In this document: positions 8,900-35,502 of the stretch, piece after piece | Numbering within the stretch: the stretch's first letter is position 1 | Layout: each line of letters begins with the position of its first letter | Assembly (NCBI RefSeq): GCF_001421535.1 | Contig: NZ_LMKN01000001.1 | Span: 1,276,267-1,340,266 of the forward strand | Direction: 5' to 3' | Length of the DNA stretch: 64,000 nt | Origin: Sphingomonas sp. Leaf20 | Lineage (GTDB): Bacteria; Pseudomonadota; Alphaproteobacteria; Sphingomonadales; Sphingomonadaceae | Position numbers and translations under genes: made by a program | Notes under the pieces: generated by a model | Told to the model about the DNA's origin: nothing | What the model saw: the letters and a program-made list of their open reading frames with translations, nothing else | Database searches by the model: none

Positions 8900-9004
8900 C
8901 CGTTCGTCTCGAGTAGACATCGAGCTTGTCGAGATGGCGTATCGAAGGACATGTCCCTCGATACGAGCCCTCGACTATGCTCGGTCTCTACTCGCCACGA
9001 ACGG
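8900..9004. repeat. Long imperfect palindromic element (CCGTTCG family), complete copy
   Basis: The 105-nt space between folP and ccrM is almost entirely one palindrome. The left arm begins CCGTTCGTCTCGAGTAGA and the right arm, read backwards, begins CCGTTCGTGGCGAGTAGA. The arms are about 50 nt each and meet at the centre GGACATGTCC. Single arms of the same family occur at 34536, 34890 and 34978. It could form a large hairpin and may act as a bidirectional transcript end. Confidence 0.9.
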
Positions 9005-15905: not shown

Positions 15906-15998
15906 CGTCATCCCCGCGCAGGCGGGGATCCAGACTGGCGAACCGTGGTCTATCACGAACCACAGAGTGTCTGGATCCCCGCCTTCGCGGGGATGACG
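15906..15998. repeat. Palindromic element (GTCATCCCCGC family) between convergent genes
   Basis: The left arm CGTCATCCCCGCGCAGGCGG..ATCCAGACT and the right arm, AGTGTCTGGATCCCCGCC..GGGGATGACG, form a 93-nt element. Each arm can also fold on its own (CCCCGCGCAGGCGGGG and CCCCGCCTTCGCGGGG). It fills the space between the aldo/keto reductase and the POT transporter, which converge on it, so it may end both transcripts. Confidence 0.92.
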
Positions 15999-19988: not shown

Positions 19989-20073
19989 CCGTCATCCTGG
20001 GCTCGACCCAGGATCCAGAGCCACAGACGCCGGCGCGCGTGACTTTGGATCCTGACTTTCGTCAGGATGACGG
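19989..20073. repeat. Palindromic element (CCGTCATCCTG family)
   Basis: Outer arms CCGTCATCCTGG and CAGGATGACGG enclose two small hairpins: CCTGGGCTCGACCCAGG on the left and CCTGACTTTCGTCAGG on the right. Inner boxes are GGATCCAGAGCCAC and TTTGGATCC. Near-identical copies lie at 22861 and 33703, and a half copy at 25828. It sits just downstream of the acyl-CoA dehydrogenase stop. Confidence 0.92.
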
Positions 20074-22853: not shown

Positions 22854-22860
22854 CGCTCTC

Positions 22861-22942
22861 GTCATCCTGACGAACGTCAGGACCCAGAGCCACGAGCGAC
22901 ACCCCCCGAAACCCTGGATCCTGACTTTCGTCAGGATGACGG
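22861..22942. repeat. Palindromic element (GTCATCCTGACG family) between tsaC and msrA
   Basis: The left arm GTCATCCTGACGAACGTCAG and the right arm CTGACTTTCGTCAGGATGAC enclose the inner boxes GACCCAGAGCCAC and CCCTGGATCC. It fills the gap between the convergent tsaC and msrA genes and is closely similar to the elements at 19989 and 33703. Confidence 0.92.
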
Positions 22943-33702: not shown

Positions 33703-33788
33703 CCGTCATCCTGGACTTGATCCAGGATCCAGAGCCACAAACGCCGCCCTCTCTGGCTCTGGATCCTGGGTCGAGCCCAGGATGACGG
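33703..33788. repeat. Palindromic element (CCGTCATCCTGG family), near-perfect copy
   Basis: Arms CCGTCATCCTGG..CCAGGATCCAGAGCCA and TGGCTCTGGATCCTGG..CCAGGATGACGG enclose about 16 nt. It is the most symmetrical member of the family in the window. It lies between the convergent chorismate mutase and TrmJ-fusion genes, 3 nt after the latter's stop. Confidence 0.94.
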
Positions 33789-33791
33789 AGA

Positions 33792-34877
33792 TCAGGCTCT
33801 AGGCTTCTTCCCCGCCAGCGACGACAACACCCCGCGCATCGTCCGGATCTCCTGGCTCGACCAGCCGGGCTTGGTCAGCAGCGTACGCAGCGTCCGCCGC
33901 GTCGTCTGGATCTTGTCGGGCGGATAGAAGAACCCCGCCCCCATCAGCATCGTATCGAGCTGGCCGATCATCCCGTCGAGCTCCTCCTGCAGTGCGGGCG
34001 GCATGATCGGATTGATCGACGGCTGGCTGAGCTCGCGCTCCGCGGTCAGCCCCTTCGACCATTCATACGCGACTAGGATCACCGCCTGGGCGAGGTTCAA
34101 GGACCCGAATTCGGGATTGATCGGCACCGTGATGATCGTCCGTGCGACCGCGACGTCGTCGGTTTCGAGGCCCGAGCGCTCGGGTCCGAACAGGATCGCT
34201 GAGCGGCCGGGGGCGGCGTGGATTTCGGTCGCGGCCTGTTCGGGGGTGACGACCGGCTTGGTCACGCCACGCTTGCGGACCGTAGTGGCGAAGACCTGCG
34301 CGCAGTCGGCGGTGGCGGCGGCGACGCTGTCGAAGACCTGCGCGTTTTGCAGGACGATGTCGGCACCACTGGCGGCGGGACCAGCAGAGGGGTTGGGCCA
34401 GCCGTCGCGCGGGGAGACGAGGCGCATCTCGACGAGCCCGAAGTTGAGCATCGCGCGCGCGGCCTTGCCGATGTTCTCGCCGAGTTGGGGGCGGACGAGG
34501 ACGATCACCGGGGGTGGGGCTGCGACACCCCCATCCCGTTCGTCCCGAGTAGAGGTCGAGCTCGTCGAGACCTCGTATCGAGGGACAGGTTCGGCGCGCT
34601 CCGGCTTGCGCGCCGCCGCGGACACCGCCGCCCAGTCGTCGCGGAACAGCGCCTCCTTCTTCTTGCGCGACCAGTCCTTGACCTGAAACTCGGCCGCGAG
34701 CGCCTCCTGCCGCGAGGGGAATTCCTGGCTCCACATCAGCTCGACCGGGCGTCTTGTCTGCGTGTACCCCGGAATCTCGCCAAGGTTATGCTGGCCGACC
34801 CGGCGCTCCAGATCGTCCGTATGTCCGGTATAATAACTGTCGTCGGCGCAGCGCACCACATAGGCCCAGAATGTCAT
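33792..34877 (-). CDS. GIY-YIG nuclease domain fused to TrmJ-type SPOUT RNA methyltransferase
   Basis: 361 residues. Residues 1-85 are a compact GIY-YIG domain (WAYVVRCADDSYYTGHTDDLERRVGQH, then PSRQEALAAEFQVKDWSRKKKEAL with the catalytic glutamate). Residues 97-114 are encoded by a repeat element. From residue 123 follows a TrmH/TrmJ methyltransferase (VIVLVRPQLGENIGKAARAMLNFGL, ILFGPERSGLETDDVA, INPEFGSLNLAQAVILVAYE, the knot) with the C-terminal helical tail seen in TrmJ, which 2'-O-methylates tRNA position 32. No ATG separates the halves; a GTG at VIVLV could start a separate methyltransferase. This looks like a real or recent fusion. Confidence 0.85.
   Translation of the reverse strand: MTFWAYVVRCADDSYYTGHTDDLERRVGQHNLGEIPGYTQTRRPVELMWSQEFPSRQEALAAEFQVKDWSRKKKEALFRDDWAAVSAAARKPERAEPVPRYEVSTSSTSTRDERDGGVAAPPPVIVLVRPQLGENIGKAARAMLNFGLVEMRLVSPRDGWPNPSAGPAASGADIVLQNAQVFDSVAAATADCAQVFATTVRKRGVTKPVVTPEQAATEIHAAPGRSAILFGPERSGLETDDVAVARTIITVPINPEFGSLNLAQAVILVAYEWSKGLTAERELSQPSINPIMPPALQEELDGMIGQLDTMLMGAGFFYPPDKIQTTRRTLRTLLTKPGWSSQEIRTMRGVLSSLAGKKPRA
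34536..34588. repeat. Half palindromic element (CCGTTCG family) at the fusion junction
   Basis: CCGTTCGTCCCGAGTAGAGG..CGAGCTCGTCGAGACC..CGTATCGAGGGACA matches the left arm of the element at 8900-9004. It is read in frame by the fusion gene on the other strand as PRYEVSTSSTSTRDERDG. Confidence 0.93.
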
Positions 34878-34889
34878 CGGCGGGGCTTA

Positions 34890-34940
34890 TCCCTCGATAC
34901 GCCGTCTCGACAAGCTCGACGTCTACTCGGGACGAACGGG
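34890..34940. repeat. Half palindromic element (CCGTTCG family), reverse orientation
   Basis: It begins CCCTCGATACGCCGTCTCG and ends GACGAACGG. It is the reverse complement of the 34536 copy with few differences. It starts 12 nt upstream of the GIY-YIG start codon, so it lies in the leader of that gene. Confidence 0.92.
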
Positions 34941-34977
34941 AAGGGGCAGGTCGCGGGCGATACTGGTGCAATGCAGC

Positions 34978-35030
34978 CGTTCGTCCCGAGTTGGGATCGC
35001 GCGAAGTCGAGAGCGCGTATCGACGGACAC
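34978..35030. repeat. Half palindromic element (CCGTTCG family), diverged copy
   Basis: CCGTTCGTCCCGAGTTGGG..GCGAAGTCGAGAGCG..CGTATCGACGGACA shares both ends with the family but has a changed middle, closer to the copy at 19860. With the 34890 copy it forms an inverted pair 37 nt apart. It ends 7 nt before the nrdR stop. Confidence 0.88.
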
Positions 35031-35037
35031 GCCCGGA

Positions 35038-35502
35038 TCACTCCGCCCGCCCGACCTCCTCGACACTCCCGGCAAACGCCTCGAAGTCCTTCGCCTCGCT
35101 GAAATCCCGGTACACACTCGCAAACCGGATATACGCGACCGAATCGAGCCCCTTGAGCCCGTCCATCACCATCTCACCGATCCGCTTCGACGTGACGTCG
35201 TTCTCGCCGAGCGTCTCGAGCCGCCGCTGGATCCCGCTCACAAGCTTCTCGATCCGCCCCGCCTCGATCGCCCGCTTGCGCGTCGCGATCGACAGCGACC
35301 GCAACAGCTTCTCGCGGTCGAACGGCTCTCTACGCCCCTCGCTCTTCAAGACGAACAGTTCGCGCAGCTGGATGCGTTCGAACGTCGTGAAACGCGCGGC
35401 GCAGCCTTCGCACTGGCGCCGGCGCCGGATCGCCGCCCCGTCTTCGGTAGGGCGGCTGTCCTTTACCTGGCTGTCGTCATGTCCGCAAAAAGGGCAGCGC
35501 AT
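35038..35502 (-). CDS. nrdR: Transcriptional repressor NrdR
   Basis: 154 residues. The zinc ribbon [42 protein letters not shown] and the ATP-cone domain ([20 protein letters not shown]) are complete. NrdR senses ATP/dATP and represses ribonucleotide reductase genes by binding NrdR boxes. Its ATG follows the stop of the 59-aa gene immediately (TGAATG). It is the usual neighbour of glyA in alphaproteobacteria. Confidence 0.97.

Follow-up and report, generated by a model that had tools for sequence, protein, structure and literature searches.

A GIY-YIG nuclease gene inside an inverted REP pair, fused to trmJ through its 3' REP arm, in Sphingomonas

One protein of E. litoralis, ELI_05635, was described in 2007 as a COG0565 member with an N-terminal GIY-YIG nuclease domain. 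The same survey described bll5746, a DUF559/TrmJ protein in which a second nuclease class is attached to TrmJ, and could not say why nuclease domains attach to TrmJ (PMC1829167). The portions of that account available to us mention no repeat, mobile element or linker origin for either protein. The gene studied here has the same architecture; the first-pass annotation, made from the sequence alone, knew of no standard GIY-YIG/TrmJ architecture, but the 2007 report had already described one case.

Palindromic repeats are also known to end up inside open reading frames, as in the case of the Rickettsia palindromic elements. In contrast to these, the repeat at our locus encloses a nuclease gene and, instead of contributing a peptide to a single gene, fuses two. 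RPE-6 and RPE-4 have been named CGTC-1 and CGTC-4 in a 2013 study, the available portions of which state that CGTC REPs are the prevailing kind in alphaproteobacteria and apparently have no transposase dedicated to them (PMC3733652). The REPIN-RAYT systems, as portrayed in the accessible parts of three papers (PMC3733652, PMC3116915, PMC2817692), have hairpin REPs, dispersed inverted pairs and a REP-flanked enzyme gene, and the system described here likewise has all three. However, the enzyme of REPIN-RAYT systems is an IS200-like Y1 transposase and their REP tag is GTAG, whereas here the enzyme is a GIY-YIG nuclease (PF01541), in many cases joined to a host gene by way of the REP, and the tag is CCGTTCG or CGTC. 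We found no description of the CCGTTCG-tagged REP of the fused locus in the available portions of PMC3733652, and no mention of GIY in those of PMC12306157. The link between GIY-YIG nucleases and REPs is new as far as we have seen, because a literature search, conducted by title and start of abstract among the matches listed and with subscription journals and preprints mostly outside its scope, found no paper joining the two.

The fused gene and its REP arms

The window, a stretch of 64,000 nucleotides from Sphingomonas sp. Leaf20, holds on its reverse strand an open reading frame with an ATG start and a frame common to relatives (33792..34877), encoding a protein of 361 aa that consists of a GIY-YIG nuclease, a REP-encoded linker and TrmJ. 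The nuclease part comprises residues 1-93 (34599..34877, reverse strand) and the TrmJ part runs from residue 123 to the stop (33792..34511, reverse strand), in agreement with the two-domain reading of the first-pass annotation. Residues 4-74 match the GIY-YIG family (Pfam PF01541, E 9.6e-18), residues 124-271 match SpoU_methylase above its cut-off (Pfam PF00588, E 2.9e-21), and residues 125-354 match TrmJ/YjtD (NCBIfam TIGR00050) with 161 bits, just under the cut-off of 167.15. The second half is thus assigned, by its domain matches, to the SPOUT methyltransferases of the TrmJ/YjtD family (COG0565), and would be predicted to methylate tRNA at position 32.

The GIY-YIG motif residues Y6, Y16, R26, H30 and E63 are invariant in an alignment of 24 of 63 GIY-YIG representatives, chosen after copies below 95 bits or with stops had been dropped. 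By profile, the nuclease part matches PDB 1zg2 (positions 1-79 of 92, E 1.5e-22) and PDB 1ywl (positions 2-79 of 92, E 7.3e-19), both UPF0213 GIY-YIG proteins of the same family by sequence, and we assign it by family membership as a predicted UPF0213-like nuclease. The same profile matches the structure-specific nuclease SLX1 weakly (E 0.00045). An AlphaFold model of the whole fusion, from a shallow alignment of 16 sequences, has a mean pLDDT of 60 and a pTM of 0.41, with the TrmJ part poorly modelled; within it, GIY-YIG residues 1-60 are confidently modelled (block means 82-94) and linker residues 89-118 fall below 50. The GIY-YIG part is under constraint, with a median dN/dS of about 0.07 (86 usable of 120 pairs), a figure that refers to this part only, as that of the TrmJ part was undefined and the linker had only 2-7 changes per class. 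No PADLOC family matched at E 0.01 or better, and an anti-phage defence system was accordingly rejected.

The linker has no in-frame ATG, as the first-pass annotation had noted, and neither GTG nor TTG occurs in it before the TrmJ core is reached. A frameshift error in the assembly at 34536-34600, named there as a possible refutation, is unlikely, since the relatives G094 and G216 (94% protein identity) share this open frame, there 364 codons long; such an error was rejected on the identical frame in many relatives, these two included, and on the fusion in 108 of 166 trmJ loci read (see below).

Repeat comparison identified the linker, about residues 98-117, as the read-through 3' arm of a REP (34529..34585, reverse strand). 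The 5' arm lies 13-69 nt upstream of the ATG (34890..34946, reverse strand); the two arms are inverted to each other, 91% complementary over 57 nt and 304 nt apart. The linker matches a gene-less, REPIN-like head-to-head pair of the same REP at 8900..9004, found by repeat comparison and by the genome pattern search: it aligns directly with the copy at 8900 over 26 nt at 88%, while for the other arm (34882-34939) a 58-nt stretch, 8900-8957, shows 88% complementarity. The palindromic match to position 8900 proposed by the first-pass annotation is thereby borne out. Because the GIY-YIG start is closely preceded by a second, inverted arm, the repeat pair encloses the nuclease gene, and the 3' arm of the pair is the linker; it is this anatomy that is new. 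A further partial copy of the same CCGTTCG-tagged REP stands beside the 5' arm (34977..35028, forward strand; end set by eye). Pairs of the other REP class, of CGTC type, occur in the window at 15906-15998, 19990-20072, 22860-22941 and, just downstream of the fused gene, at 33704..33787.

In the genome of 4.31 Mb, the arm end CGTTCGTCCCGAGTAG has 30 matches at two mismatches or fewer, which form 14 head-to-head pairs and two singles. Thirteen of these pairs are gene-less, with starts 58-147 bp apart, and one, at 386 bp, holds the GIY-YIG gene. Forty more matches were found at three mismatches, and look like background because the reversed control pattern gave 35 matches at three mismatches or fewer. 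The gene-less copies contain the inner palindrome GTATCGAGGGACATGTCCCTCGATAC and variants of it, and by eye the GIY-YIG gene stands at the palindrome centre. Such a relation is what one expects of a gene-bearing element and its shorter derivatives, whichever came first. The arms begin with CCGTTCG; GAGTAG lies within the arm in this genome, and not as an end tag, and was found within 50 of 174 upstream arms of GIY-YIG subfamily 1.

The nrdR/trmJ junction and the spread of the fusion

The gene upstream of the fusion (35038..35502, reverse strand) is taken by us, from its sequence, to be nrdR; in most genomes that lack the GIY-YIG gene, trmJ directly adjoins or overlaps nrdR. The 361-aa query matched 293 of 295 genomes of the genus and 60 of the 61 genomes of a first set, in which the match covered the TrmJ half in 59 and was confined to the GIY-YIG half in one. 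We read the trmJ locus in 166 of these 295 genomes: 108 loci are fused, 12 have GIY-YIG adjacent and unfused, and 46 are without it. Since 156 of these loci were the best-scoring among the matches listed, 108/166 is no genus-wide rate; nonetheless, this comparison with relatives, suggested in the first-pass annotation, establishes that the fusion is not private to this genome. The GIY-YIG search itself covered all 196 genomes not known as fused, plus seven fused ones. Five further GIY-YIG copies adjoin trmJ outside the count of 120 neighbours (L205, L207, L209, L238 and L239), and are probably unfused, because their frames extend over only 106-150 aa. In a genome scan with the GIY-YIG alignment, trmJ lies beside GIY-YIG in 27 of the best 80 named loci listed, and all 27 are fused; these come from Sphingomonas, Sphingobium, Sphingopyxis, Rhizorhabdus, Erythrobacter, Aurantiacibacter and two less resolved MAGs, and some are the same genomes as among the 166 trmJ loci of the genus.

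Of the 46 loci without GIY-YIG, nrdR was seen in 41, and in 33 of these 2-26 nt separate its stop from the TrmJ core, with nrdR/trmJ overlaps of ATGA, GTGA or TTGA in examples. At 97 of 98 fused loci, 49-344 nt lie between the nrdR stop and the GIY-YIG start; at the remaining one the two overlap by 4. These distances place the unit where other genomes have abutting or overlapping genes. The first-pass annotation had proposed that a repeat insertion joined two genes into one frame: the repeat is indeed the linker that joins the halves, but a bare repeat arriving between pre-existing neighbours finds no support, as the nuclease gene is bracketed on both sides, at this locus and at many others. 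Simple repeat insertion was rejected as the only cause, since in most loci from which GIY-YIG is absent trmJ comes straight after nrdR. On an unrooted TrmJ tree, the presence of GIY-YIG at trmJ changes 16 times, gains and losses counted together, with the junction occupied or empty by species. This is the distribution observed in considering whether the gene behaves as a homing endonuclease, which would copy itself into an uncut allele of one site.

The linkers of the 108 fused loci are 42-291 nt long and of widely different sequence, and 96 of them contain the REP end CGAACGG or CGGACGG. There is no in-frame ATG in 71 of the 108, and in 42 there is no ATG, GTG or TTG before the TrmJ core. That 108 of 120 GIY-YIG/trmJ neighbours share one open frame, against a chance by composition of about 0.51 x 1/3 (around half stop-free, one-third in the right frame), points to selection for fused translation. 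In one clade (L012, L067, L073, L078, L086, L101, L118 and L119) the linker is interrupted by an in-frame TGA, which a GTG or TTG follows immediately. This appears to be a split or coupled form of the fusion and, judged from the reading frames, a second way of keeping trmJ translated.

GIY-YIG was found joined to further partners, giving four partner families with TrmJ. It is joined to Prok-JAB in Porphyrobacter, Novosphingobium and Erythrobacter crassostrea records (L339, L352, L360), to a pseudouridine synthase (S4 + PseudoU_synth_2) in a Citromicrobium record (L370), and to an FGGY kinase in a Gallionellaceae record, where the frame reaches the contig end (L316). The linkers to these partners look repeat-encoded by eye. 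Two free GIY-YIG genes, L343 and L350, have long tails (83 and 71 aa) that also seem to be repeat-encoded.

At the site of another free GIY-YIG unit, in G093 (C1:857505-860780), the orthologous sites of near relatives (L401-L423) hold DUF559 (PF04480) ORFs between a third type of inverted repeat, CCCCTCCCGC..GCGGGAGGGG. Inverted flanks scored at least 36 on the scale defined below in nine of ten distinct DUF559 loci, all nine at this one site. DUF559 with CCCCTCCCGC..GCGGGAGGGG may possibly be a third nuclease-repeat pairing, and the site a swap site. A clean empty site for a free GIY-YIG copy was not found, the relatives holding DUF559 ORFs or other DNA there, and no target duplication, clean single-step insertion or REP movement was seen at the sites compared.

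REP bracketing, GIY-YIG subfamilies and REP types

We scored bracketing as the inverted similarity of the 160 nt before and the 200 nt after the GIY-YIG gene, with a threshold of 36; no score could be computed for the named locus L357 or for the genus loci L243 and L280. Of the 56 distinct genus copies located elsewhere than at trmJ, 49 reached the threshold (two of the 56, L158 and L159, belong to subfamily 2 and lie below it), as did 86 of 123 copies at trmJ, and in sliding control windows no locus did so. Among the best 80 named subfamily-1 loci listed, 57 of the 79 scored were bracketed, mostly by CCGTTCG REPs, and 22 lay below the threshold. At these same best 80 listed loci, the threshold was reached by one of 3227 sliding windows and by five of 422 other ORFs (three of 159 short ones). 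Ten RAYT loci, scored as a possible positive control, ranged from 15 to 31 and none was high; most of these loci look alike. Bracketing by CCGTTCG REPs was also found in Methylobacter, Nitrotoga, Gallionella and delta-proteobacterial records.

The REP consists of the CCGTTCG tag and a hairpin. Across 240 distinct loci it lies upstream on the strand of the gene in 174, downstream on the other strand in 188 and in both positions, that is head-to-head, in 150; the reverse orientation was seen upstream in 63 and downstream in 60. The stem pairs at 3.13 of 4 positions on average, compared with 1.82 for shuffled partners (maximum 1.96, 500 shuffles). Among the arms, 237 of 362 are fully paired, with 13 different fully paired stems.

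The REP core CGTTCGTSCYGAG, whose count misses some variants such as CCGTTCGGTTC, has median counts of 39 in 99 fused genomes, 20 in 63 with another GIY-YIG copy (of which nine were found fused at trmJ and one adjacent), 2 in 11 with an adjacent unfused copy and 1 in 122 without one; the p-value of this four-group comparison over 295 genomes ignores kinship. The highest count, 275, is that of G147. On the well-supported branches of the TrmJ tree there are nine independent pairs that differ in the gene, in which REP abundance differs the same way in 6.1 (mean), the opposite way in 0.0 and is equal in 2.9 (median p 0.03, range 0.016-0.22). There are exceptions: 22 of the 122 genomes without subfamily 1 hold at least eight REPs, and 21 of the 173 with it hold three or fewer. 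The former (G113, G302, G077 and 19 others), with at least eight CCGTTCG-type matches and no subfamily-1 GIY-YIG found, may harbour either orphan REP populations or a missed partner. A Y1 transposase match was found in 33 of 295 genus genomes. None (PF01797) was found in the genome of the fused locus, and a RAYT was therefore rejected as the REP mobiliser there.

A distant GIY-YIG subfamily 2 was identified in 37 of 44 genus genomes without subfamily 1, these being the 22 of the 122 with at least eight REPs together with 22 that have none. Of its 29 scored loci in those genomes 21 were bracketed, many by repeats of the form CGTCAT...ATCCA. Subfamily 2 has matches in 129 of 385 alphaproteobacterial genomes. 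From these we took 70 loci, 30 from the scan and 40 chosen by hand to cover many families, of which 37 were bracketed, compared with two of 74 control ORFs, and 33 lay below the threshold. In 28 of the 70 both flanks carry a CGTC-like motif, and in one CCGTTCG. In the genome of the fused locus, two subfamily-2 copies are not bracketed by score (L158, 19; L159, 26) and a third, with CGTC-type arms, is (L432, C1:907652; score 69).

The motif is absent from some bracketed subfamily-2 loci; arms such as CGTCATCCCCGCGAAGGCGGGGATCCA have a CGTC tag, AT stem ends and a CCA tail, and so fit the description of CGTC REPs, found mainly in alphaproteobacteria, in the available portions of PMC3733652. Where those portions say that CGTC REPs seem to have no transposase of their own, we find a GIY-YIG gene bracketed by them. 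After deduplication, CCGTTCG stands on both sides of 165 of 234 subfamily-1 and none of 32 subfamily-2 loci, and CGTCAT on both sides of three of 234 and 17 of 32, respectively. The contrast holds when the loci are thinned to below 70% identity (CCGTTCG, 34/51 and 0/20; CGTCAT, 0/51 and 11/20). In these counts a truncated subfamily-1 copy (L012) was moved out of subfamily 2, and five copies of intermediate score were excluded. GIY-YIG subfamily and REP type thus go together at these loci in a near-exclusive manner.

Explanations and implications

We give a probability of roughly 0.6 to the reading that the GIY-YIG gene, enclosed in inverted REP arms, lodged between nrdR and trmJ, was fused to trmJ via its 3' arm and mobilises its own REPs. 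In such a history, a REPIN with a GIY-YIG gene at its centre would have entered the nrdR/trmJ junction, formerly an overlap. There, trmJ would be left without a coupled start of its own; because the 3' arm is open in the frame needed, translation would run on from the nuclease through the linker into the methyltransferase, and TrmJ would form the C-terminal half of the product. Being bound in this way to a conserved gene may help the nuclease to persist. The nuclease itself most likely would recognise and cut the hairpins of its own REPs, and through this cutting gene-less REP pairs elsewhere might be copied or moved, as has been proposed for RAYT transposases and GTAG REPs. In its favour are the arms shared with the gene-less pairs, the bracketing compared with control ORFs and windows, the paired stems, the match of subfamily to REP type, the higher REP numbers in genomes with the gene, the missing Y1 match, the abutting genes at unoccupied junctions, the preserved open frame and the low dN/dS. 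Counting against it are that no movement, target duplication or clean insertion was seen, the loci below the bracketing threshold (two subfamily-2 copies of this genome among them), the genomes whose REP numbers do not follow the gene, the low median of the adjacent, unfused genomes and the REPs in reverse orientation. A broader reading, which we hold only tentatively and at somewhat less than even odds, sees in small GIY-YIG proteins throughout Proteobacteria the dedicated mobilisers of two or more large REP classes, CCGTTCG and CGTC among them. They would form a REPIN system independent of RAYTs, and would repeatedly settle before conserved genes and fuse to them through their own 3' arm, which would secure the nuclease and create multidomain proteins; DUF559 may be a third such system.

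The main rival is a host-serving, domesticated nuclease, specific to structure, that processes REP hairpins or cruciforms for safe replication, while the REPs spread by other means and the arms regulate or mark the gene. Its fusion to conserved genes, the low dN/dS of the GIY-YIG part and the weak profile match to SLX1 all accord with such a role. We nevertheless consider it unlikely, as on its own it leaves unexplained both the position of the gene between two arms which, in the gene-less copies, form the ends and the near-exclusive pairing of subfamily and REP type. Joint action of nuclease and methyltransferase on RNA, for example in tRNA quality control, with the repeat linker incidental, would fit two enzyme families that both act on nucleic acids, and a frame kept open in 108 of the 120 neighbours read despite very different linkers. 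However, the same kind of nuclease is also joined to Prok-JAB, an FGGY kinase and a pseudouridine synthase, and one clade has the in-frame TGA with GTG or TTG just behind it; selection for this particular pair of enzymes is in our judgement improbable.

The GIY-YIG gene might instead be a passenger, taken up as cargo by a REPIN that another enzyme spreads. The Y1 matches in some genomes of the genus and the 22 genomes with at least eight REPs and no subfamily-1 gene are what a passenger would predict; set against these are the absence of a Y1 match from this genome, the recurrence of the GIY-YIG/CCGTTCG pairing in Methylobacter, Nitrotoga, Gallionella and delta-proteobacterial records, and the association of two subfamilies with two REP classes, so that we give this account rather little weight. 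The bracketing could finally reflect chance density, since the intergenic DNA of sphingomonads is full of REPs, as the count for G147 illustrates, and small genes would often be flanked. Yet other ORFs at the same best-listed named loci, short ones included, seldom reach the threshold, the head-to-head orientation is preferred and the REP type is specific, and we regard chance as very improbable indeed.

If the preferred reading of REP-mobilising nucleases is correct, small GIY-YIG nucleases of this kind may supply the partner enzymes so far missing for a large class of bacterial repeats. The anatomy of the locus offers one answer to two earlier puzzles, as set out in the available portions of the reports concerned: CGTC REPs for which no dedicated enzyme was found (2013, PMC3733652), and nuclease domains that are attached to TrmJ (2007, PMC1829167). 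It would also provide a concrete route, seen here with four partner families, by which a repeat arm may turn neighbouring genes into one protein.
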